NCBI GenBank assembly: GCA_902774365.1
Contig: CACYHX010000004.1
Span: 1-64,000 of the forward strand
DNA length: 64,000 bases
Source: an uncultured Bacteroidia bacterium
GTDB taxonomy: Bacteria > Bacteroidota > Bacteroidia > Bacteroidales > F082
Direction of reading: 5' to 3'
The stretch's first letter is position 1. Each line of letters begins with the position of its first letter. Of this stretch, positions 3,407 to 51,024 are shown piece by piece. Position numbers and translations under genes: made by a program. The notes under the pieces were generated by a model. That model saw only the letters and a list, made by a program, of their open reading frames with translations, had not been told where the DNA came from and ran no database searches.

Positions 3407-4768
3407 ATGGCACAAAAACCCAGCATTCCCAAAGGCACCCGCGACTTCCTGCCCGAAGTCATGGTGCGCCGCAATTATATCTTCGACACCATCAAAGGCG
3501 TGTTCAAACGCTTTGGTTTCCAACCTATTGAGACCCCTTCAATGGAAAATCTCAGCACCCTCTTGGGCAAATACGGCGACGAGGGCGACAAGCTGCTCTT
3601 CCGCGTGCTCAACAGCGGTGACTTCATGGGTGGCGTGGAGCAAAATGGCGAGCCGCTTGAATCCCTGAAACTGGCCAGCAAAATCACGGAAAAAGGTCTG
3701 CGTTACGACTTGACCGTGCCTTTTGCCCGTTTCGTCACCATGTACCGCGACCAAATCGCCTTCCCCTTCAAGCGCTACCAGATACAACCCGTTTGGCGCG
3801 CCGACCGTCCGCAGAAAGGGCGTTACCGTGAATTCTACCAATGCGATGTCGACATCATCGGCAGCGACTCCTTGCTGAATGAAGCCGAGCTGGTGCAAAT
3901 CGTGGACGAGGTCTTTGGTGCCTTGAAAATCAGAGTCACGCTGAAAATCAACAACCGCAAAGTGCTGGCGGGTATCGCTGAATACATCGGCAAATCAGAC
4001 GCTTTGGTCGATATCACCGTGGCCATCGACAAGCTCGACAAAATCGGCATTGACGCCGTCAACGCGGAACTCGCCGAAAAGGGGTTGGAACAAGCCGCCA
4101 TCGACAAGTTGCAGCCTATCCTCTTCATGAAAGGCAACACCCGCGAAAAGTTGGCGCAACTGAAGCCTTTGCTCGACAACGAAGTCGGCCAAAAAGGCAT
4201 CGAGGAGCTGGAGACCTTGTTCGACTACATCGACAATATGGAGTTGGGCATTGATACTGAACTCGACCTCACCTTGGCCCGTGGCTTGAATTACTATACC
4301 GGCGCCATCTTCGAGGTGAAAGCCAAGGACTTCCCGATGGGTAGCATCTCGGGCGGCGGTCGCTACGACAACCTCACGGGCATCTTCGGTCTGCCCAACG
4401 TCAGCGGCGTGGGCATCAGCTTCGGCGCCGACCGCATCTATGACGTGCTTGAAGGCCTCAACCTCTTCCCCGAAACCATGTCGGAGAGCACCAAGGTCAT
4501 CTTCCTCAACTTCGGCAAGAACGAAGAGAAATACTGTCTGAAGTATCTCAACCAGGTGCGCAAGCACGGCATCAACGCGGAAATATATCCCGATGCCGCC
4601 AAGATCCAGAAACAGATGAAATACGCCAACCAACGTGCCATCCCGATCGTCGTCATCGCTGGCGAGCAAGAGGTGGCCGAGCAGAAGTTCACCGTGAAGT
4701 TCATGAAGGAAGGCACACAAGAAACCGTAGACGCCAACAAATTGGTGGAAACATTATTAGCCCCGTAG
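3407..4768 (+). CDS. hisS: Histidyl-tRNA synthetase
   Basis: Charges tRNA-His with histidine in the cytoplasm. The 453-residue protein begins [13 protein letters not shown], as class II HisRS enzymes do. Motif 2 is in [14 protein letters not shown], the histidine-specific motifs appear as [15 protein letters not shown] and [14 protein letters not shown], and motif 3 as [12 protein letters not shown]. The C-terminal anticodon-binding domain is complete. The ATG at 3407 is preferred over an upstream in-frame TTG that lies inside the promoter. hutH follows after 71 bases. The stop codon lies inside a small GCCCCGTAGGGGC hairpin. Confidence 0.97.
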
Positions 4769-41638: not shown

Positions 41639-42127
41639 TCATTCGTTTTTCGACATTTTCACCAGTTTGTCCTTGATGCGCGCCAGCCTCACCCCAACAT
41701 TGTTCGGCGTGATACCGATGATGGCACCAATTTCATCGTAAGTGATGCCTTCGAGCCAAAGCAGGATGAGGCTTCGGTCGATGAGGTCGAGGCGCGAGAT
41801 GCGGTCGTAGAGTTCGCGGATTTGCTGCGTCTTGGGGTCGTCGGCCTCGTAAGGGTCGATGTCCACCGTCAGCGGCACGGTCTCGATACGCCGGCGTTCC
41901 TTCTTGTCCTGGTTGATGGCCGTGTTGAGCGCGACGCGATAGATCCAAGTCTGTGCGGTGCTTCGGCCCTCGTAGTTGTCGAAGCCGTTCCAAAGCCTGA
42001 TGAGGATTTCCTGAAACAGGTCATCGATTTCGGCCTTGTTGCGCGAGAACATGTAGCACACCGTGTAGATGGTCCGCTTGTGCTGCCGCACCAAAAGTTC
42101 ATACTGATGTTCCTTGTCGTTGTTCAT
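41639..42127 (-). CDS. ECF RNA polymerase sigma factor
   Basis: A 162-residue sigma-70 family protein with region 2 (NKAEIDDLFQEILIRLWNGFDNYEGRSTAQTWIYRVALNTAI) and region 4 (LDLIDRSLILLWLEGITYDEIGAIIGITPNNVGVRLARIKDKL). It lacks regions 1 and 3, as ECF factors do. The genes it controls are not known; the membrane protein downstream is probably co-transcribed. Its promoter is divergent from prfB. Confidence 0.93.
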   Translation of the reverse strand: MNNDKEHQYELLVRQHKRTIYTVCYMFSRNKAEIDDLFQEILIRLWNGFDNYEGRSTAQTWIYRVALNTAINQDKKERRRIETVPLTVDIDPYEADDPKTQQIRELYDRISRLDLIDRSLILLWLEGITYDEIGAIIGITPNNVGVRLARIKDKLVKMSKNE

Positions 42128-42165
42128 AATGCGTTTTTCGTTGCAACGTTCATCATGTTAGACAA

Positions 42166-42173
42166 CAAAGGTA
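42166..42173 (-). promoter_or_regulatory. Promoter -7 box of the sigma factor gene
   Basis: On the minus strand TACCTTTG matches TAnnTTTG and is 38 bases before the ATG at 42127. Confidence 0.55.
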
Positions 42174-42203
42174 GGGATTTATTACAAACTGAGAGATTTT
42201 TCT

Positions 42204-42211
42204 TAATTTTG
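42204..42211 (+). promoter_or_regulatory. Promoter -7 box of prfB
   Basis: TAATTTTG matches TAnnTTTG and lies 30 bases before the ATG at 42242. Confidence 0.6.
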
Positions 42212-42241
42212 CAGCCTCAAAAGACAAACACCTATATTAAA

Positions 42242-43358
42242 ATGATCACTGCTGACCAACTTAAAGACTTATGTAAGAGGATTGATGCCTTGAGGAGGTA
42301 TCTTTGACGTCGACAGACGTACCATCGAAGCTCAGGAATTAGACGAAAAGACCCAAGACCCGCAGTTTTGGGCTGATGCCAAGGCCGCCGAAGCCACCAT
42401 GAAGAAGGTGCGCGAGGTGAAGGGCTGGCTTAACGGTTACAAGGAAGCCGAAGACGCAGGCAACGACCTCGCCGTGCTCTTCGATTTCGCCAAGGAAGGC
42501 GAGGCCACCGAAGAAGAAGTGGACGAGCAATACAACGCCACCATCCAAATCGTGGAGAACCTGGAGTTCAAGAACATGCTGCGTGAGGAAGCCGACCCCA
42601 TGAGCGCCGTATTGAAAATCAACGCGGGCGCAGGCGGCACCGAGGCCCAAGACTGGGCACAGATGCTCATGCGCATGTATATGCGTTATGCCGAAAACCA
42701 CAAATACAAACTCACCATCTCCAACCTTCTGGAAGCCGACGAGGCCGGCATCAAGTCGGTGACGATGAAACTCGAAGGCGACTATGCCTACGGCTACCTG
42801 AAAGGCGAAAACGGCGTCCACCGCTTGGTGCGCGTCAGCCCGTACAACGCCCAAGGCAAACGCATGACCTCGTTCGCCTCGGTGTTCGTCACCCCGCTCG
42901 TCGACGACACGATTGAGATCGTCGTCGAACAGTCACGTCTGTCGTGGGACACCTTCCGTAGCGGCGGTGCCGGCGGTCAGAACGTGAACAAGGTGGAGTC
43001 GGGCGTGCGCTTGCGTTACCAATACAAAGACCCCTACACAGGCGAGGAAGAAGAAATCCTCATTGAGAACACCGAGACCCGCGACCAACCCAAGAACCGC
43101 GAGAACGCCTTGCGCCTCTTGAAGTCGCAACTCTACGACCGCGAGATGCGGCACCGTATGGAGGAGCAGAACAAGATTGAGGCGGGCAAGATGAAGATTG
43201 AATGGGGCAGCCAAATCCGCTCCTATGTCTTCGACGACCGCCGTGTGAAAGACCACCGCACCAATTATCAAACCTCCGACGTGCAAGGCGTCATGGACGG
43301 CAACATCGATGCATTCTTGAAGGCGTACCTCATGGAGTTTGGAGGCAAAAAAGAATAA
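42242..43358 (+). CDS. prfB: Peptide chain release factor 2 with programmed +1 frameshift
   Basis: RF2 ends translation at UGA and UAA. The first 21 codons (MITADQLKDLC...) end at a TGA at 42305-42307 in AGGAGGTATCTTTGAC, the classical RF2 shift site: an internal Shine-Dalgarno sequence, CTT slippery codon and TGA followed by C. After a +1 shift at CTT, reading continues from GAC at 42306 to a stop at 43356-43358, giving 371 residues. The GGQ motif is at about 244-246. The recognition tripeptide reads SPY (199-201), where E. coli has SPF. The last codons form the attachment site of the downstream integrative element. Confidence 0.97.
42293..42308 (+). promoter_or_regulatory. RF2 autoregulatory frameshift site
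   Basis: AGGAGGTATCTTTGAC joins an internal Shine-Dalgarno sequence, the CTT slippery codon and an in-frame TGA with C after it. When RF2 is scarce, ribosomes shift +1 here and make more RF2. Confidence 0.95.
43338..43358 (+). repeat. attL core: end of prfB
   Basis: The core begins TTTGGAGGC and ends with the prfB stop codon TAA. It is identical to 48493-48513. The codons before it differ only by synonymous changes between the two ends (TAC CTC ATG GAG here, TAT CTG ATG GAA there). Confidence 0.85.
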
Positions 43359-43396
43359 TCTGTTTTTCAAACATTTACAAGTCGTTTTCTTTTAAT

Positions 43397-43462
43397 AAAA
43401 CTTAAACATATCGGCATAATTCTTGTATTAAACTTAAACGATACCTTAATCAAAACTTAATC
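43397..43462 (+). repeat. Left-arm repeats, likely recombinase binding sites
   Basis: AAAACTTAAAC at 43397-43407, AAACTTAAAC at 43430-43439 and AAAACTTAATC at 43452-43462 are direct repeats between attL and the integrase gene. A further copy is at 48409-48419 near the other end. This placement is that of arm-type sites. Confidence 0.65.
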
Positions 43463-43465
43463 GAA

Positions 43466-44806
43466 ATGCCGAAAAAACAAAGTGCAAGTATCTCATTGAA
43501 GATGCTGAAAAAAGAAAAGGACGGAAAACACCCTATCGTTTTACGTGTGTGTTGGAAGGGTCAAATCGCCTCCCGATACACTAATGTATGGGTCGAGCCT
43601 AAGTATTGGAACGGAACAGAAATCAGCAAGAAATGCCCCAATTATGCCGCCTTGAACATTCTATTGAAGAAAGTATATAATGAAGCGGATGGGAGGCGTT
43701 TAGACTATGAAGCAAAAGAAATTGAGTACACAGCATACGACATCGTTTCTGAAAAAGATATTCCAAAATGCAAGTTAGAGTTTTCCGCTCTTTACCAAGC
43801 ATTAGTTGAAGAAAAGAAACTTAGAGCTCCAAACAATTATCATAGAACATATAAGAAACTGAAGGAATACAGCCGTCTTAGCGAAATCCAACTCACAATG
43901 CTCACCGCTGAGTACTTACAAGGATTTGCCAATTGGATAGTACAACAAGGATTGAAAAACGGCTATGCTGCCTTCTGCCTTCGATATATCCGCTCCGTAT
44001 GGAACTATGCCATTAAAGAGCGACTTGTTTCCGCTGATGACTACCCCTTTGGCGATAACAACGGCTTTTGGAGGAGGTACAAGCAAGATGAACGCAAAAC
44101 GGCTATTACAAAGCACCAATTAGCAGGCATTATTGGCTATTTCTGTGAAGTGTATTATGACAAGAGCTCTATGCTTATGGGAATAATACAGCCCAAAAGT
44201 ACGGTCAAATACGATTCACTATATAGTTATTGGTTTGCCTTGAATTTTTGGCTTACTATCTACTATATGCAAGGCCTATCCCCCATAGATGTGCTTAATC
44301 TAAAACGAAATCAAATTCAGTACATCAAGGATGATAATGATGAAGGATATTATCGTATTACATGCGTTAGGAGAGCAAAAACAGGTGTTGAAGTGCCAAT
44401 AGCAATCAAAGCAGATGGAATTGTGGACTTGCTCATCACGCCATACTATCAGCGCAAGGATGGCGAATATCTATACCCCCTTTTCAACCATTTACCCAAA
44501 GGAACGAGCAAGGAAACCGCAAAAAACAATCTTATTGCATACAATAGCAAGACTTTGAAAGTAATATGGCAAAGAATAAACAAATATGCCTTTGACCACG
44601 GTTGGCAAGATTGGGAAGATATACCAAGCGACACTACCCTTTATTCCGCACGGCACTCTTTCGCTACGCATTACTTGGAAAGTGGCGGTAATGTGGTCGG
44701 TTTGGCAACAATGCTCGGCAGAAAAGTAGCAAACATTGATGTTTATGTGAAGCAATTAACAAGCGATGATTATATCTTGAATCTTAAAAAGGATATGGCA
44801 TTATGA
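43466..44806 (+). CDS. Tyrosine recombinase (integrase), atypical catalytic residues
   Basis: A 446-residue integrase of the Bacteroidota phage/transposon type. An N-terminal arm-binding region (SISLKMLKKEKDGKHPIVLRV) and a SAM-like core-binding domain (about 100-210) precede the catalytic domain. Lys305 (RAKTG), Arg396 (SARHSFATH) and the nucleophile Tyr427 (NIDVYVKQL) are present. The first catalytic arginine seems replaced by Gln269 (YYMQGLSPID, where relatives have RG), and the late His/Trp position reads Arg419 (LGRK). It lies next to attL and overlaps the next gene by four bases. Confidence 0.9.
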   Translation: MPKKQSASISLKMLKKEKDGKHPIVLRVCWKGQIASRYTNVWVEPKYWNGTEISKKCPNYAALNILLKKVYNEADGRRLDYEAKEIEYTAYDIVSEKDIPKCKLEFSALYQALVEEKKLRAPNNYHRTYKKLKEYSRLSEIQLTMLTAEYLQGFANWIVQQGLKNGYAAFCLRYIRSVWNYAIKERLVSADDYPFGDNNGFWRRYKQDERKTAITKHQLAGIIGYFCEVYYDKSSMLMGIIQPKSTVKYDSLYSYWFALNFWLTIYYMQGLSPIDVLNLKRNQIQYIKDDNDEGYYRITCVRRAKTGVEVPIAIKADGIVDLLITPYYQRKDGEYLYPLFNHLPKGTSKETAKNNLIAYNSKTLKVIWQRINKYAFDHGWQDWEDIPSDTTLYSARHSFATHYLESGGNVVGLATMLGRKVANIDVYVKQLTSDDYILNLKKDMAL

Positions 44807-46308
44807 CACAAACGGCAAACCTCCACCCCATCCAAATATACCAATTCAAAGGCTTTGATATGGATGCCTTTGTTGATATGTACTTATATGCTATTACTCC
44901 ACACGAAACCATAAATGAAGATACTATATCCGTATTCAGAGCAGCGAAAACCAAGATGAGTGGGGCGAAGCGTGGCGCAAAGTCAAGGTCAGTTATTGAA
45001 AACAAATGCCGATACTTGCAAGATGCCATTATCCGTATGGCGAACAGAAAGCAAGATGATAAAACCTTTTCGCTCAACGCTGACATTCTCAAATCAGTCA
45101 TAGGGAAAGAGTATAAGACAATGATAGATGTCATCGTTGAAATGAAATATATCTCGATTGGCGATGGCAAATGGGGTAAAGGTAAACGCTATTACTATCG
45201 GCAAGGTAAATACTCTATGTTATACACATTGAACGATGTTGAAGTGTATCTAACAGAGCCGTTCACCAACTTGAAGATTCAGGAATATAAGGAAAAGACC
45301 ATTGAAAAGGTCAAAGAGCAATTTGAACTTTACACCAAGCCCGAAATCGTCAGGCAATTTGGTGAATCATTCCTTAAATCCTATCTCACATCGCTCAACA
45401 AAATCAAAATTGAAGATGAGCAGGGGCTGAAAGAATACATAAAGACAAAGACAGCCGATAATCCAAATTCAAATCCATATTATAGATATGTTTCTATTGA
45501 ATTAAAGAACAAGAATAAGTCAATTTATAGAATTGATGATAGTCATAGGATTTACCACATTCTCACTAACCTTGACAGAAACATTAAACAATATCTCAAT
45601 ATAGACTTATCGATAGATTGTAAAAATAGCCATCCATTATTATTTAATTATTTCATTTTTAATAAATTAAATATTTCTTGTTCTCAATCTTTTACTATTT
45701 CATCCTTTATTCATTCTATCGATAATCCATCCTTCCATAATGATGGGAAAAATCTTCGTAATTTACTAATATCCAATAATATAGAAATTGAACAAGTTGC
45801 AAAAATGAAGGATGATGAACTTGAATACATCTACAAGACCTCCAAAGGGCTGTTATGGGATGAGATTTGCGAAGCCCATCCCGAATTGGATAGGAAGGAG
45901 GTCAAGGTGGCAATGTTTCAGGCGGTTTTCTACTCTCATTCACCAATAGCAGACAGATGGAACGCCTATGCAAGAGAGTTCAAAAGCCAATATCCTTCGG
46001 TATATAAGTTGATAGGCGATTGGAAAAGGAAGAAAACGAGCGAAGCGGTCAAGAATTATATGGCTGAGCATCATTTACCCATTGACAAAGGCTCTGCATC
46101 GCTCAGCGTGGCAATGATGGCGTTGGAAGCCGACATTTTCACCAACATTCTAAAACGGCTTTACTCAAAAAGGTGGAACGCCCTCCACATTCACGATTGC
46201 ATCATCATTCCCAAGACCACCAACAAGAATCAGCCTACAAGGGATGAGGTCGTTGAGATTATGCGGGATATTTATCGCTCGTTTGGACTTGCGCCAACAT
46301 TCGATTAG
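44803..46308 (+). CDS. TV-Pol-like family A DNA polymerase of the mobile element
   Basis: A 501-residue protein whose C-terminal half carries the three family A polymerase motifs in order. Motif A is SIDCKNSHP with Asp272, motif B is RKEVKVAMFQAVFYS with Arg364, Lys368 and Tyr377, and motif C is IHDCIIIP with His464-Asp465. This pattern fits the transposon- and virus-encoded polymerases (TV-Pols) related to family A and T7-like polymerases. The N-terminal half has no recognisable exonuclease motifs. It begins four bases before the integrase stop, so both are translated from one mRNA. It may replicate or repair the excised element. Confidence 0.65.
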   Translation: MTQTANLHPIQIYQFKGFDMDAFVDMYLYAITPHETINEDTISVFRAAKTKMSGAKRGAKSRSVIENKCRYLQDAIIRMANRKQDDKTFSLNADILKSVIGKEYKTMIDVIVEMKYISIGDGKWGKGKRYYYRQGKYSMLYTLNDVEVYLTEPFTNLKIQEYKEKTIEKVKEQFELYTKPEIVRQFGESFLKSYLTSLNKIKIEDEQGLKEYIKTKTADNPNSNPYYRYVSIELKNKNKSIYRIDDSHRIYHILTNLDRNIKQYLNIDLSIDCKNSHPLLFNYFIFNKLNISCSQSFTISSFIHSIDNPSFHNDGKNLRNLLISNNIEIEQVAKMKDDELEYIYKTSKGLLWDEICEAHPELDRKEVKVAMFQAVFYSHSPIADRWNAYAREFKSQYPSVYKLIGDWKRKKTSEAVKNYMAEHHLPIDKGSASLSVAMMALEADIFTNILKRLYSKRWNALHIHDCIIIPKTTNKNQPTRDEVVEIMRDIYRSFGLAPTFD

Positions 46309-46336
46309 TATTCCATGGCACTTATTCAAATAATAG

Positions 46337-46418
46337 TTGTATTCAAATAAATCTGCAAAGCCCCTGAATACGATTTTTGTTTTGTATTCAATTTTTTCTT
46401 TGATTTATTTGCATACAA
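46337..46418. promoter_or_regulatory. Inverted-repeat region upstream of the resolvase (possible res site)
   Basis: TTGTATTCAAATAAAT (46337-46352) is repeated inverted at 46403-46418 with one mismatch, and TTGTATTCAA occurs again at 46382-46391. The group lies just upstream of the resolvase promoter, as res sites and operators of serine resolvases often do. Confidence 0.55.
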
Positions 46419-46433
46419 TTCAAAAAAAAGTAT

Positions 46434-46441
46434 TATCTTTG
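46434..46441 (+). promoter_or_regulatory. Promoter -7 box of the serine resolvase
   Basis: TATCTTTG matches TAnnTTTG and lies 23 bases before the ATG at 46465. The in-frame GTG at 46444 is too close to the box to be a likely start. Confidence 0.65.
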
Positions 46442-46464
46442 CAGTGTCAAATCATCAAACAACA

Positions 46465-47094
46465 ATGAAAGCAGTAATCTACGCCCGTGTTAGTAGCACA
46501 ACAGATAGACAGAACACCGAAAGACAAGTTGCAGACCTGAAAGAATATGCAACATACGCCAAAATGGAAGTGGTCAAGGTCTTTGAAGAAAAGATTAGTG
46601 GAGCAAAGAAAAACGCTGAGCGACCCGTCCTTCAGCAAGCTTTGGACTACTGCAAGGTTGAGAAAATAGATATGTTATTGGTGTCAGAATTGAGCCGATT
46701 GGGAAGAAATTCCTTTGAGGTGTTGGAAACTATTAAGGGCTTGGTCGATGCCAAAATCAACCTGTATATGCAGAAGGAAAAACTGACTTTGCTCGATGAT
46801 AATGGCGAGCCTTCCATCTTCGCCCCTATTATGTTGGCAACGCTCAGCACCTGTGCGCAACTTGAACGAGAGAATATCAAATTCCGTCTGAATAGTGGAA
46901 GGCAACAATACATTGCCAAAGGCGGCAAACTTGGTCGAAAAGAAGGTTCTATCAAGACCAAAGAACAAAAGAAAGAAGAATATGGCGAGGTTATCAGTCT
47001 ATTGAAAAAGGGCTATTCTATCCGCAACGTGGCCAAACTTTGCAATGTATCAAATTCGACCGTTCAACGGTTGAAGAAAGACTTTCAACTATGA
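46465..47094 (+). CDS. Serine recombinase (resolvase/invertase family)
   Basis: A 209-residue site-specific recombinase. It starts KAVIYARVSS with the catalytic serine, has the family phrases LLVSELSRLGRNSFEVLETI and LERENIKFRLNSGRQ, and ends with a helix-turn-helix (KKGYSIRNVAKLCNVSNSTVQRLKK). Length and domains are those of small resolvases. The inverted repeats upstream are its likely site. It may resolve multimers of the circular element. Confidence 0.92.
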   Translation: MKAVIYARVSSTTDRQNTERQVADLKEYATYAKMEVVKVFEEKISGAKKNAERPVLQQALDYCKVEKIDMLLVSELSRLGRNSFEVLETIKGLVDAKINLYMQKEKLTLLDDNGEPSIFAPIMLATLSTCAQLERENIKFRLNSGRQQYIAKGGKLGRKEGSIKTKEQKKEEYGEVISLLKKGYSIRNVAKLCNVSNSTVQRLKKDFQL

Positions 47095-47099
47095 TAACA

Positions 47100-47135
47100 A
47101 AGGGAGGTGCAAGCCTCCTTTTTTATTTTTTTTAT
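47100..47135 (+). terminator. Terminator of the resolvase gene
   Basis: The arms GGAGG (47103-47107) and CCTCC (47114-47118) are extended by AA/TT pairs and followed by a long T-rich stretch, six bases after the resolvase stop. Confidence 0.8.
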
Positions 47136-47141
47136 TTTTTC

Positions 47142-47170
47142 TTGCACAATCCAAATTCTTCCTATATTTG
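47142..47170 (+). promoter_or_regulatory. Promoter in the 399-base gap before the lipoprotein gene
   Basis: TTG at 47142-47144 and TATATTTG at 47163-47170 are 18 bases apart. The next gene starts 323 bases later. The gap 47095-47493 otherwise shows no convincing gene, so this promoter makes either a long leader or a small RNA. Confidence 0.5.
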
Positions 47171-47493
47171 CATTGCCAAACCGAGAGAAAACGGATTGGT
47201 GAAGAAAGCGCATTTTCGCTTTATTCCATTCGGTGAAACTTGGACAATTTTACTATAAGGATTGGAATAAAGGAAGATGATGGCTTCCATCGGTTTGTAA
47301 TCGTTTTAATACACGATACATCCCTGTGGAGCAATCATTTAACTTTATTTTGTTCTTATAGGGGTGTCCAAGCCCATCACCGACAAGATAGGGCAAAGAT
47401 GAATGGCTCCACTTTCTTCATTTGTCAAGCGTATTCCCATTTGAGCCATTAAGGACAAAATGAAGAACTAAGTTCAACTAAACCTAACACCCC

Positions 47494-47946
47494 ATGAAAA
47501 GATTAAAGTATGCAGTGATACTCCTGCTTGGTTTGAGTATGGCAACAATGATGACTTCCTGCAACAAAGAAAGCAGTTATAAAGACAAGATTGTTGGTGT
47601 ATGGCAGACGACAAAAGAAACAATTTACACATACGACTTATCGGGAAGTCTTATTAATGAGAGTTCGTATGACGATTATTCAGAAGACGAGAATTATAGA
47701 TGGGAGTTCTTTTCTGAAGGCCTTGTCAAAACGTCAGGTGAGATTTGGCACAAAACTAATTCTAAAGACTATTTTATTTCTTATGTAATTGACGGAAACC
47801 GACTTATCTTTTCTCTTATTGGAGACACGGAAGAATATACAATTCTAGAATTAACAAATTCAACAATGGAATGGGAACAGGAATATGTGAGCTCTTATTC
47901 CAATTGCAAATATGTTTACAGATATGAATTCAAGAAAGTGAAATAG
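47494..47946 (+). CDS. Small lipoprotein, lipocalin-like (element cargo)
   Basis: A 150-residue protein with a lipoprotein signal (GLSMATMMTSCNKES, lipidation at Cys24 or so). The mature part starts KIVGVWQTTKE and continues with short beta strands (YRWEFFSEGLVKTSGEIW, YVIDGNRLIFSLIGD), the pattern of lipocalin-like Bacteroidota lipoproteins. The ligand is unknown. It is in AT-rich DNA inside the integrative element and appears to be a passenger gene. Confidence 0.7.
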   Translation: MKRLKYAVILLLGLSMATMMTSCNKESSYKDKIVGVWQTTKETIYTYDLSGSLINESSYDDYSEDENYRWEFFSEGLVKTSGEIWHKTNSKDYFISYVIDGNRLIFSLIGDTEEYTILELTNSTMEWEQEYVSSYSNCKYVYRYEFKKVK

Positions 47947-47976
47947 ACAAACGCTATCGAAAGACTGATAATAAGG

Positions 47977-48011
47977 AAACGCCCATTTGCATTTTGCATT
48001 TGGGCGTTTTT
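47977..48011 (+). terminator. Terminator of the lipoprotein gene
   Basis: AAACGCCCA and TGGGCGTTT pair around an A/T-rich loop, followed by T residues, about 30 bases after the stop. The stretch 48012-48432 beyond it shows no convincing gene; it holds the promoter and repeats listed next. Confidence 0.75.
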
Positions 48012-48344
48012 GCTATGCTGCATTGGATTGAATGATGAAAAATTTTCGTCAAACAATGGGGGTTGAAGGGGGAAATTTAGCAGTCCCTACAACTCCCAAG
48101 TCGGATAACGCAGAAATGAAAGTTGAAAAACACCCTGCCTCTCACACGGCCAACGGTTATATACGGCACTTTGGCCGCTTAGCGATGGCATGGAAATCCA
48201 AATCAAAATCAGTTATCCATGCTTCTATATTAAATTGAATTTCAATTATTTAAGCACTCCTTCAGTATAACAATACGGTCAAATAACACAAACTAATTTA
48301 CTATCACATTTTTGGTAGAGAAAATGAATACAAATAAGATGGTG

Positions 48345-48372
48345 TTGTTTGAAAAAGAATTTCGTATTTTTG
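48345..48372 (+). promoter_or_regulatory. Outward-facing promoter at the right end of the element
   Basis: TTG at 48345-48347 and TATTTTTG at 48365-48372 are 17 bases apart. It points toward attR. In the excised circle it would read through the joined attachment site into the integrase gene. Confidence 0.55.
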
Positions 48373-48399
48373 CAGTCGCTAACAAGAACGAGCCTTTAT

Positions 48400-48419
48400 G
48401 CTTAAACAAAAACTTAAAC
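48400..48419 (+). repeat. Right-arm repeats, likely recombinase binding sites
   Basis: GCTTAAAC at 48400-48407 and AAAACTTAAAC at 48409-48419 match the left-arm repeats at 43397-43462. They lie between the outward promoter and the mini-gene. Confidence 0.6.
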
Positions 48420-48432
48420 AAAGGAATTGACT

Positions 48433-48513
48433 ATGAATAAAATAATTGAAAATAAGATATTTACATCGATATCCTTAAACTATCTGATGGAATTTGGAGG
48501 CAAAAAAGAATAA
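48433..48513 (+). CDS. 26-codon mini-gene ending in the RF2 C-terminal sequence
   Basis: An ATG at 48433 opens a 26-codon frame that ends at the attR core. Its last ten residues are YLMEFGGKKE, identical to the end of RF2, and it uses the same TAA. The first 16 residues (MNKIIENKIFTSISLN) do not match RF2 clearly, although ACATCGAT is shared with the corresponding prfB region. It has a promoter upstream. It may be translated, or may simply be the element's copy of the attachment gene end. Confidence 0.45.
   Translation: MNKIIENKIFTSISLNYLMEFGGKKE
48493..48513 (+). repeat. attR core: copy of the prfB 3' end
   Basis: Identical over 21 bases to 43338-43358. With one mismatch, the similarity extends left to 48487. 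The original host sequence after prfB resumes here, leading to the PepSY-like genes. Confidence 0.85.
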
Positions 48514-48577
48514 AACTGGCATAATTATTGCAAATAAAAATTTATCACCAGATCACTAACATTAAACTTTTCAAATA

Positions 48578-49000
48578 ATGAAAAAGCTTATTCTCGCTTT
48601 CATTGCCATCGTTAGCTTTGGCTTTTCCACGGCAATGGCACAAAACACCAACACCAATCCAGCCATCACACAGTTTGTGACGCAGCATTTCCCCAACGCC
48701 ACCGTTCAGATGGTGATGCCTGACGAAGACGACATCGACGTCGTGTTGAACGACTACACCAAAATCGAGTTCCGTCTCAACAACGAATGGAAGAAAGTCG
48801 ACTGTGAGCACTCCACGACCTTTACTGCCGTGCCTGCCACAATCGTCCCCGAGCAAATCACAGCCTACGTGAACGCCAATTTCCCTGGCGCCATCATCAA
48901 AAAACTGGAAAAGAAATTCAGAGGTTGGGAGATTGAGCTGAACAACGGCCTTGAACTGAAGTTCAACAGCAATTTCAAAGTAATGGAAATCGACGACTAA
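48578..49000 (+). CDS. Exported PepSY-like (DUF2874) protein
   Basis: A 140-residue protein with a signal peptide (AFIAIVSFGFSTAMAQ) and two PepSY-like units: AITQFVTQHFPNATV with DIDVVLNDYTKIEF, then QITAYVNANFPGAII with GWEIELNNGLELKFN. Proteins like this are common in Bacteroidota periplasm and of unknown function. The following gene, 12 bases away, is a paralogue. Confidence 0.8.
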   Translation: MKKLILAFIAIVSFGFSTAMAQNTNTNPAITQFVTQHFPNATVQMVMPDEDDIDVVLNDYTKIEFRLNNEWKKVDCEHSTTFTAVPATIVPEQITAYVNANFPGAIIKKLEKKFRGWEIELNNGLELKFNSNFKVMEIDD

Positions 49001-49012
49001 TCAGAAGCGACC

Positions 49013-49444
49013 ATGAAAAAAGTTATCATCGTAGCCCTTTTTATCGGCTTCGCCCTGACCAACACGTCATGCAATAGTGACAAGAAAGCACAAGCCATCA
49101 ACGAATTTGTAAGAGCTTACTTCCCTGACACCGAAGTCATTGCCAACATCAAAGACGGCCTCGATTGCGACGTCACCCTCAGCGACTACACCCAAATCGG
49201 GTTCGATGGCAACCTGTTCGGCAAAATCGAATGGGACGAGGTGGACTGCCGTCACGCTTCGCTTTCCACGGCTGTGCCCGCCGCATTGGTTCCTGTCGAA
49301 ATCAGCAACTATGTGAGCCGCATCCACGGAAGCCAAACCATCACGAAAATCTCTAAGGACAACCGTGGTTGGGACATCGAGCTGAGCAACGGCATCGAAA
49401 TCGAGTTCGACAAAAGATACAACGTCGTTGATTTCGACGATTGA
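49013..49444 (+). CDS. PepSY-like (DUF2874) lipoprotein, paralogue
   Basis: A 143-residue protein with the same two-unit layout as its neighbour (INEFVRAYFPDTEV, CDVTLSDYTQIGF, GWDIELSNGIEIEFD). Its signal ends in TNTSC, a lipobox, so it is lipid-anchored, whereas the upstream copy should be soluble. Tandem duplication is likely. A terminator follows 20 bases after the stop. Confidence 0.8.
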   Translation: MKKVIIVALFIGFALTNTSCNSDKKAQAINEFVRAYFPDTEVIANIKDGLDCDVTLSDYTQIGFDGNLFGKIEWDEVDCRHASLSTAVPAALVPVEISNYVSRIHGSQTITKISKDNRGWDIELSNGIEIEFDKRYNVVDFDD

Positions 49445-49464
49445 TTCTTTTCACGCACCAAGTC

Positions 49465-49496
49465 AAACGGTCTGGAGTTTTTCAGGCCGTTTTTTT
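49465..49496 (+). terminator. Terminator of the PepSY-like pair
   Basis: AAACGGTCTG and CAGGCCGTTT form the stem with one G-T pair, followed by a T tract. Confidence 0.8.
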
Positions 49497-49540
49497 GTTT
49501 TATTTTGGGCCCGACAATGTATTTTGTCTTTCAAAAACTG

Positions 49541-49548
49541 TAATTTTG
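49541..49548 (+). promoter_or_regulatory. Promoter -7 box of cstA
   Basis: TAATTTTG matches TAnnTTTG and lies 21 bases before the ATG at 49570. Confidence 0.65.
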
Positions 49549-49569
49549 CGCCATTAAACAAACCAATCT

Positions 49570-51024
49570 ATGATTACTTTTTTCATCGCCTTGGCCGTAC
49601 TCGTCATCGGCTATTTCATTTACGGAAAATTCGTTGAGAAGGTATTCGGCATCGACCCGCAGCGCGCCACGCCTGCCACCACCATGGCCGATGGCGTCGA
49701 CTATGTGCCGATGAAGCCATGGCGCATCTATCTGATTCAGTTCCTCAACATCGCTGGTGTGGGTCCCATCATCGGAGCCATTATGGGTGCGCAGTTCGGC
49801 ACGGCTTCCTTCCTGTGGATTGTGTTGGGCAGCATCTTCGCTGGTGCCGTCCACGACTACCTCGCGGGCATGATTTCTTTGCGCGACAAAGGCTGCAGTT
49901 TGCCCGAAATCCACGGCACCTACTTGGGTAACGGCGCCAAACAAATCATGCGTGCCTTCACCATCATCCTCATGATTTTGGTTGGCGTGGTATTTGTCAA
50001 CACGCCTGCCACCCTTTTGAATGCCAACTTCACACAAGGCTGGAATCCCTACATCTGGATTATCATTATCTTAGCTTATTACCTGATTGCCACACTCTTA
50101 CCTATTGACAAACTCATCGGCAAGATCTATCCTATTTTCGGCATCTTGCTCTTGGGTATGGCCGTAGCCATTTTTGTGGCTTTCCTCATCTATAAGCCCG
50201 AGATTCCAGAATTATGGAGCGGCATGCAGAACCGTCATCCCGACGCAGCCAACAACCCCATCTTCCCGATGATGTTCATCAGCATCGCCTGCGGTGCCAT
50301 CTCGGGTTTCCATGCCACGCAGTCGCCACTGATGGCCCGTTGCATGGTCAATGAGAAACAAGGCCGTCCCATCTTCTACGGTGCCATGATTACCGAAGGC
50401 GTCGTGGCTTTGATTTGGGCTGCCGCCGCCGCCTATTTCTTTGGTCCCGACAGCGTGGTGGATGTCACCGGAAAGAGCGGTGCCGCCATTGTGGGTGTTA
50501 TCGCCAACACCTGGTTCACGCCCATTATCGCGACCATCACCATCTTGGGTGTCATCTCGGCTGCCGTCACTTCGGGTGACACAGCGCTGCGCTCAGCCCG
50601 ACTCATCATCGCCGACTTCATGCACTTCGACCAAAAGCCCATCAAGAACCGCCTGATCGTCGCTATTCCCATGTTTGCGGTCACGGCAGCCATCTTGGTC
50701 TACAGCATCTCTGACGCCAAAGGCTTCCAAGTCATCTGGCGTTACTTCGCCTGGGCCAACCAAGTGCTGGCGACAGTGACACTTTGGGCTATCTCAGTCT
50801 ATCTGGTAAAGAACAAAGGTAAAATGTGGTATCTCATCACCCTCATCCCTGCCCTCTTCATGACCATGGTGACGGGATGTTTCCTCTTCGTAGCCAAGGC
50901 TGCCGACGGCGGTCTGGGGTCAATGTTGCCAACGGCAGTGGGTTATGGCATCGGTGCCGCCATCACGGTATTGGGGTTGGTGTTGTTCCTGATGTTTCTA
51001 AAGAAAAACAAGGCGAAAGCATAG
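49570..51024 (+). CDS. cstA: Carbon starvation protein A (peptide/pyruvate transporter family)
   Basis: An inner-membrane transporter of 484 residues with about twelve or more hydrophobic segments. The family motifs DGVDYVPMKPWRIYLIQFLNIAGVGPIIGAI, GAVHDYLAGMISLRDKG and SGFHATQSPLMARCM are clear. It is shorter than E. coli CstA (about 700 residues), as CstA proteins of Bacteroidota often are. It stands alone between terminators. Family members carry peptides or pyruvate; the substrate here is inferred. Confidence 0.92.
   Translation: MITFFIALAVLVIGYFIYGKFVEKVFGIDPQRATPATTMADGVDYVPMKPWRIYLIQFLNIAGVGPIIGAIMGAQFGTASFLWIVLGSIFAGAVHDYLAGMISLRDKGCSLPEIHGTYLGNGAKQIMRAFTIILMILVGVVFVNTPATLLNANFTQGWNPYIWIIIILAYYLIATLLPIDKLIGKIYPIFGILLLGMAVAIFVAFLIYKPEIPELWSGMQNRHPDAANNPIFPMMFISIACGAISGFHATQSPLMARCMVNEKQGRPIFYGAMITEGVVALIWAAAAAYFFGPDSVVDVTGKSGAAIVGVIANTWFTPIIATITILGVISAAVTSGDTALRSARLIIADFMHFDQKPIKNRLIVAIPMFAVTAAILVYSISDAKGFQVIWRYFAWANQVLATVTLWAISVYLVKNKGKMWYLITLIPALFMTMVTGCFLFVAKAADGGLGSMLPTAVGYGIGAAITVLGLVLFLMFLKKNKAKA

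Follow-up and report, generated by a model that had tools for sequence, protein, structure and literature searches.

The 3′ end of prfB as the probable target of a site-specific integrative element in an uncultured Bacteroidales bacterium

Integrative elements in conserved genes

Pipolins are integrative elements with a primer-independent family B polymerase. Genomic islands of Bacteroidales that target transfer RNA (tRNA) genes use an integrase with Arm-DNA-bind_5 and Phage_int_SAM_5 domains, and have direct repeats as attachment (att) sites. An integrase using a conserved gene as its target is an already known kind. SXT sits in the 5′ end of prfC, the gene of release factor 3 (RF3), and element ends identical to the 3′ end of a gene are described as keeping its function (PMC3715440). 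Here, we describe a locus in a 64-kb stretch of contig CACYHX010000004.1 from an uncultured Bacteroidales bacterium (the window, meaning the whole stretch analysed). Very probably, this locus holds a site-specific integrative element of about 5.15 kb whose tyrosine integrase placed it in the 3′ end of prfB, the gene of release factor 2 (RF2).

Like the SXT/R391 integrative and conjugative elements (ICEs), the element has an integrase targeting a conserved translation gene. It differs in using the 3′ end of prfB and not the 5′ end of prfC, in its size (about 5 kb versus about 100 kb; PMC2654960), and in that no relaxase or conjugation genes were recognised among its four larger proteins (integrase, polymerase-like protein, serine recombinase and cargo; shorter frames were left unsearched). 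With the tRNA-targeting islands it shares the type of integrase and the direct-repeat att sites, and a sister element in the relative G134 (see below) is of that kind. However, the window element targets a protein gene, and no relaxase or other transfer gene was recognised among those four proteins. Like pipolins, it combines a tyrosine recombinase with what may be its own polymerase. Yet the protein in question has a family-A-like motif pattern and no polymerase family match, and judged by its sequence the element would not be classed as a pipolin. Virion structural or packaging genes were likewise not recognised among the four larger proteins, and we do not class the element as a prophage.

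Bacterial attachment sites (attB) are typically tRNA or transfer-messenger RNA (tmRNA) genes or intergenic, and many lie in protein genes, according to a paper whose main text does not mention prfB (PMC12884075). Another study names prfB solely among the genes of a Helicobacter pylori island (PMC8935386). Our literature search, which was incomplete and does not exclude an earlier report, found no paper naming prfB as an integration target. With the present locus, the RF2 gene joins the sites used by integrases.

The repeated prfB tail and its empty and occupied relatives

The last 21 bp of prfB (TTTGGAGGCAAAAAAGAATAA) are repeated exactly about 5 kb downstream (Table 1). A third place was not found in the 64 kb, even with three mismatches allowed, and none turned up in 100 shuffles. 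The repeat reaches 12 bases further to the left, with 30 of 33 positions identical (91%). Read in the frame of prfB, all three differences are silent (TAC/TAT, CTC/CTG, GAG/GAA), so that both copies encode YLMEFGGKKE followed by a stop. The DNA between the copies has a GC content of 37.7%, compared to 50.0% in the whole window, and 50.6% and 51.7% in the 10-kb flanks. The integrase gene adjoins one att site, starting 107 bp past attL. In prfB itself, the site of the programmed RF2 frameshift, an in-frame CTT TGA C, is intact at 42302–42308.

Matches to prfB were present in 172 of 173 genomes of the family, some of them partial or weak. Within the genus, 98 genomes had a match, and 78 prfB ends from 76 of them, the window's included, were surveyed; the other 22 genomes held full-length matches (10), a partial gene (5) or only a weak match (7). 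At least 5.2 kb of downstream sequence was present at 69 of the 78 loci. A second tail copy lay downstream at three ends, in G057, the window's genome (G000) and G128, with 1, 3 and 4 mismatches in 33, respectively. The next-best match among the 527,128 positions scanned had 11 mismatches. In all three carriers prfB is open to its stop, and the reading frame of the target is thus kept after insertion. YLMEFGGKKE-stop is encoded by 28 of the 78 ends. From other genera, the prfB ends of 40 family genomes were read by frame (33 with at least 5.2 kb downstream), and neither a FGGKKE-stop ending nor a repeated tail was found among them.

An empty site is present in the nearest relative, G114, whose prfB is 96.2% identical to that of the window. 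There, the region with PepSY-like genes follows directly 3′ of prfB. The G114 locus (L044) aligns to window positions 41800–43362 and 48481–51010 as adjoining stretches, with an overlap of 37 bp at the tail. The exact 21-base tail occurs without an element in four relatives, G114, G104, G108 and G132. Of the 77 other prfB loci surveyed in the genus, two contained element DNA (blastn, E ≤ 1e-10), those of G128 and G057. G128 belongs to another species (prfB 85% identical), and carries a related element at the same prfB site, with 88.5% nucleotide identity in the integrase gene and 91.9% in the polymerase-like gene. Its cargo is a WG-repeat protein, and the region downstream differs from that of the window.

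In G057, the two ends of the element are present with all five CTTAAAC sites; of the serine recombinase gene, the last 23 codons are there as a stub. The integrase and polymerase-like genes are gone, and two other genes lie inside, one with a secretion-tail domain. Because its ends enclose the recombinase stub, this locus is best read as an internally deleted copy of the same element. The 126 bp ahead of attR are 97.6% identical between the window and both G128 and G057, while the three element genes shared with G128 are 84.6–91.9% identical. Whereas the ends are constant, what lies behind the serine recombinase varies from element to element and is exchangeable cargo; G128, G057 and G134 all have other genes in this slot.

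The integrative element is supported by the integrase adjoining an att site, the att copies that are prfB tails, the empty sites, and the element of a second species at the same site. An earlier note on this DNA, made from the sequence alone, had proposed such an element from the exact repeat, the AT-rich DNA, the two recombinases and the synonymous codons left of the core. These observations all hold, the recombinases being supported by Pfam, and the relatives that it suggested looking for exist: an uninterrupted prfB followed by PepSY-like genes in G114, and another element bounded by the prfB end in G128. Its 21-bp core stands as an exact repeat, but the shared att spans 33 bp. The note would have counted the repeat in a relative lacking the recombinases against an element; G057 is such a relative, but with the recombinase stub inside. 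Its description of prfB as a site that no bacterium can lose was overstated: the gene is kept, but its ending varies, and the element is rare.

Probable place of strand exchange and a proposed exchangeable targeting module

Comparison of the tails indicates where the strands may be exchanged. In the window's genome, the attR tail is identical to the tail of the empty G114 site (33/33), whereas the present prfB tail matches it at 30 of 33 positions. G057 shows a similar picture, with 32/33 for attR and 31/33 for the prfB tail, and AAAAAAG is found in both attR and G114, versus AAAAAGG in the prfB tail. In G128, attR codes for GGKKAE and prfB for GGKKE. GGKKAE is found in none of the prfB tails of the three carriers, nor among the genus tails read. 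All three comparisons fit an exchange in the left part of the homology, after which the remainder of prfB would come from the element. Judged from these sequences, the last codons of RF2 probably come from the element. The earlier note had the gene restored on insertion; prfB does keep its full frame, and its ending is probably supplied by the element.

The following course of events would account for the locus. In a circular form, the right arm, the tail in the element's own attachment site (attP) and the left arm would be joined. The integrase would bind the CTTAAAC repeats in the arms on both sides and recombine attP with the tail in the chromosome; the crossover would probably lie toward the left of the 33 bp, near CTNATGGA. 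The last 7–8 RF2 codons and the stop would then come from the element, and the old tail would end up 5 kb downstream, in attR. After integration, the integrase gene lies a short way behind prfB, from which it could be transcribed; in the circular form, it would be faced by a putative outward promoter of the right arm. The polymerase-like protein and the serine recombinase may serve replication of the circle and resolution of dimers.

Several observations weigh against this reading, in whole or in part. In the integrase, Phage_integrase (PF00589) scored below the Pfam cut-off (18 versus 27.1 bits), and no excisionase was recognised in the prfB-type element. The five CTTAAAC sites lie at fixed places in the three prfB elements and are absent from the G134 locus, but the motif was chosen post hoc; when only the two ends were resampled, a 7-mer repeated as often came up in 212 of 5,000 trials, and a sixth CTTAAAC lies inside the G128 element. 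The compared genomes are mostly drafts, including that of the window (79 contigs, 82.6% complete). GGKKAE as the original RF2 ending of the G128 species is something we infer, because no genus tail read ends in this way and, among the genomes compared, this species had no empty member. Finally, between G057 and G128 the prfB tail shows 4 differences in 33 positions and the adjoining element arm only 2 in 89 (97.8% identical), which would fit a tail derived from the host. This last point favours an exchange in the right part of the repeat (GAATAA), by which prfB would keep its own tail and the element would carry that of attR. Such an exchange is possible, but the less probable of the two: attR is closer than the prfB tail to the empty G114 site both in the window's genome and in G057, and the GGKKAE coding of the G128 attR is absent from the prfB tails of all three carriers.

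The element could also be a relic, once mobile and by now immobile in the window's genome. It is rare, as 2 of the 99 genomes of the genus have a near-identical integrase of full length. No gene for transfer was recognised among its four larger proteins, and G057 holds a deleted copy. However, in the window as in G128 all three genes, for integrase, polymerase-like protein and serine recombinase, have open frames, and each end has its att site and arm. We regard a relic as rather improbable.

The sister element in G134 points toward the determinant of the target. At the nucleotide level, its polymerase-like gene is 91.8% and its serine recombinase gene 84.6% identical to the counterpart in the window, and this common backbone is preceded by a different tyrosine integrase. 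A 215-aa protein at the other end of the element had helix-turn-helix and excisionase matches below cut-off. The insertion is at a tRNA-Ser(CGA), where a direct repeat (TTTGCGGAGAGAAAGGGATT) at 4339 and 9789 reaches into the 3′ end of the tRNA. The ends of this element share their own 12-mer (GGTAAACTATTG), and CTTAAAC is absent from the 18-kb locus. The prfB of G134 has no second tail within its 3.3 kb of downstream sequence. A hydrolase gene flanking the element lies beside a tRNA-Ser pair with tRNA-Ser(CGA) in G081, G080 and G050 (3 of 24 loci scanned), and in G099 a tRNA-Ser(CGA) is found about 1 kb from it; the remaining 20 of 24 loci are without tRNA-Ser. Between G128 and G134, identity reaches 97.9% in the polymerase-like gene, compared to 82.7% in prfB, which points to a recent horizontal transfer between species.

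As integrase and ends in G134 differ together with the target, the tyrosine integrase and both ends appear, on sequence grounds, to behave as one exchangeable targeting module. On the circle, right arm, att, left arm and integrase would be adjacent, and a single exchange would replace all of them together. The same backbone would thus have one module for prfB and another for tRNA-Ser.

Insertion by the serine recombinase instead of the tyrosine integrase has the open recombinase gene in its favour, which is kept in both G128 and G134. It is nevertheless unlikely that this enzyme is the integrase, because it is kept in an element with another target, at the tRNA-Ser of G134, while the tyrosine integrase and the ends change. 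Furthermore, serine integrases have a large C-terminal part, and this protein of 209 aa is of resolvase/invertase size and without such a part; we give this alternative very little weight. A partial duplication of prfB or a chance insertion of AT-rich DNA without site-specific recombination, which would suit a right copy that is a tail fragment only and a G057 copy without recombinase genes, is hardly credible in view of the empty sites, the same site in a second species with other flanks, and the conserved ends with swapped cargo.

Together, the empty site, the insertion, the deleted copy and a sister element that differs in target, integrase and ends alike amount to a nearly complete natural experiment. 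It allows tests of the swap of targeting modules, of a possible rewriting of the RF2 C-terminus by the element, and of the role of the polymerase-like family, which is also found in two viral contigs.

Element genes, distribution and neighbouring features

The 501-aa protein between integrase and serine recombinase had been called polymerase-like in the earlier note. This description holds at the level of motif residues; the protein had no sequence match in Pfam, NCBIfam or the Protein Data Bank (PDB). Among 11 aligned homologues, D272, K368 and H464-D465 are invariant (11/11), and R364 is found in 10. Before this alignment, L138–L140, which were not recovered by hmmsearch, and the fragments L039, L123 and L125 were dropped. 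The pattern D272 / R364...K368 / H464-D465 resembles the A, B and C motifs known from family A polymerases. A profile comparison with PolA in hhalign gave a probability of 0.2%. The AlphaFold models were poor, with a predicted local distance difference test score (pLDDT) of 37 from a single sequence and 40 from four sequences, and Foldseek found nothing for the model at an E-value of 0.001 or better. Thus, we call the protein polymerase-like by its motifs only, and do not claim it as a polymerase.

In the genus, this protein was found in 4 of 99 genomes (G000, G128, G134 and, as a partial match of 41%, G066). Distant homologues were present in three other genomes out of 393 in the order, and in seven other genomes out of 395 in the phylum. 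Two IMG/VR contigs also encode homologues, one of them beside a terminase-like gene that was recognised by eye; other searches of viral contigs gave no match, and none were found in phages or plasmids. One homologue, L141, also contains, toward its C terminus, a region of the GIY-YIG homing endonuclease type.

For the integrase, 1 of 393 genomes in the order, its own, had a match (E ≤ 1e-20). Matches in the genus came from 3 of 99 genomes, among them a partial one of 25% in G077 and the two near-identical full-length ones, the window's own included. A search of genome contigs returned a single record, the G128 contig, and viral contigs returned none. In phages there were three distant matches at 24%; two small phage records with such a distant integrase were set aside, as they carry other large genes. 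In plasmids, element DNA matched three records, all over recombinase genes and at 66–72% identity. Exact searches of viral contigs for the DNA patterns of the right end and the tail gave no match.

We tentatively suggest, with more doubt than confidence, that such elements are small integrative plasmids of Bacteroidota that replicate themselves and form a class not yet described. They would possess their own divergent family-A-like polymerase, a resolvase, a slot for cargo and a slot for the targeting module. A swap of modules would redirect them between prfB and tRNA, and insertion into prfB would overwrite the last RF2 codons.

Table 1. Coordinates of prfB, the element and associated features (window positions unless a locus is named)
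Feature	Position	Strand	Remarks
prfB (RF2)	42242–43358	+	Targeted by the insertion at its 3′ end; reading frames before and after the frameshift site checked
attL, 33-bp prfB tail	43326–43358	+	Exact 21-bp part at 43338–43358
Left arm with two CTTAAAC repeats (43401, 43433)	43359–43465	+	91.6% identical to G128; repeats at the same places in G128 and G057
Tyrosine integrase, 446 aa, with arm-binding domain	43466–44806	+	Pfam; PHROG integrase
Polymerase-like protein, 501 aa	44803–46308	+	Motif-like residues D272, R364...K368, H464-D465; homologue alignments; no Pfam match
Small serine recombinase, resolvase/invertase type, 209 aa	46465–47094	+	Pfam Resolvase PF00239 (E 1.8e-34), HTH_7
Cargo, probable lipoprotein with weak lipocalin-like match	47494–47946	+	PF13648, 21.5 bits, just under the cut-off of 22.4
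Conserved right arm	48355–48480	+	97.6% identical to G128 and G057; CTTAAAC at 48401, 48413, 48474
Outward promoter-like TATTTTTG in right arm	48365–48372	+	Presumed motif
26-codon frame MNKIIENKIFTSISLNYLMEFGGKKE	48433–48513	+	Last 10 codons are the prfB tail
attR, second prfB tail copy	48481–48513	+	Exact 21-bp part at 48493–48513
Shared non-coding stretch	L041 8036–8429, L042 8760–8981, L043 3068–3460

The integrase has Arm-DNA-bind_5 (PF17293) and Phage_int_SAM_5 (PF13102) above cut-off. The serine recombinase scored 96 bits against the NCBIfam model of the Mpi invertase, under the cut-off of 272. The lipoprotein signal and the lipobox of the cargo protein were judged by eye. In the right arm, TATTTTTG may be an outward promoter, as its sequence suggests. 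The MNKIIENKIFTSISLNYLMEFGGKKE frame is open in all three prfB elements, and could encode a short peptide or reflect the geometry of the att site alone. PADLOC gave weak matches only (best E 0.0034), and nothing in Rfam reached the gathering threshold.

A pattern TGGCAT-N5-TTG, which we take to be a sigma-54-type promoter, lies at 48517–48530, 3 bp past attR and ahead of the PepSY-like genes. It is found within 60 bp of the prfB stop at 10 of the 78 genus ends, and not once in 49,124 bp of same-strand upstream background. A sigma-54 factor is encoded in the window's genome. Insertion of the element would part this promoter from any enhancer inside prfB.

In G046 (L095, positions 421–444), the 24 bases directly after prfB resemble the left end of the G128 element (23/24), with no element behind them, and are possibly a scar. 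Between its cargo and right arm, G128 has a non-coding stretch in common with G057 over 394 bp (95%), and with G134 over 223 bp (94%). In G128 it contains a palindrome, AAAAAGCATGCTTTTT, and this stretch is a candidate replication origin.

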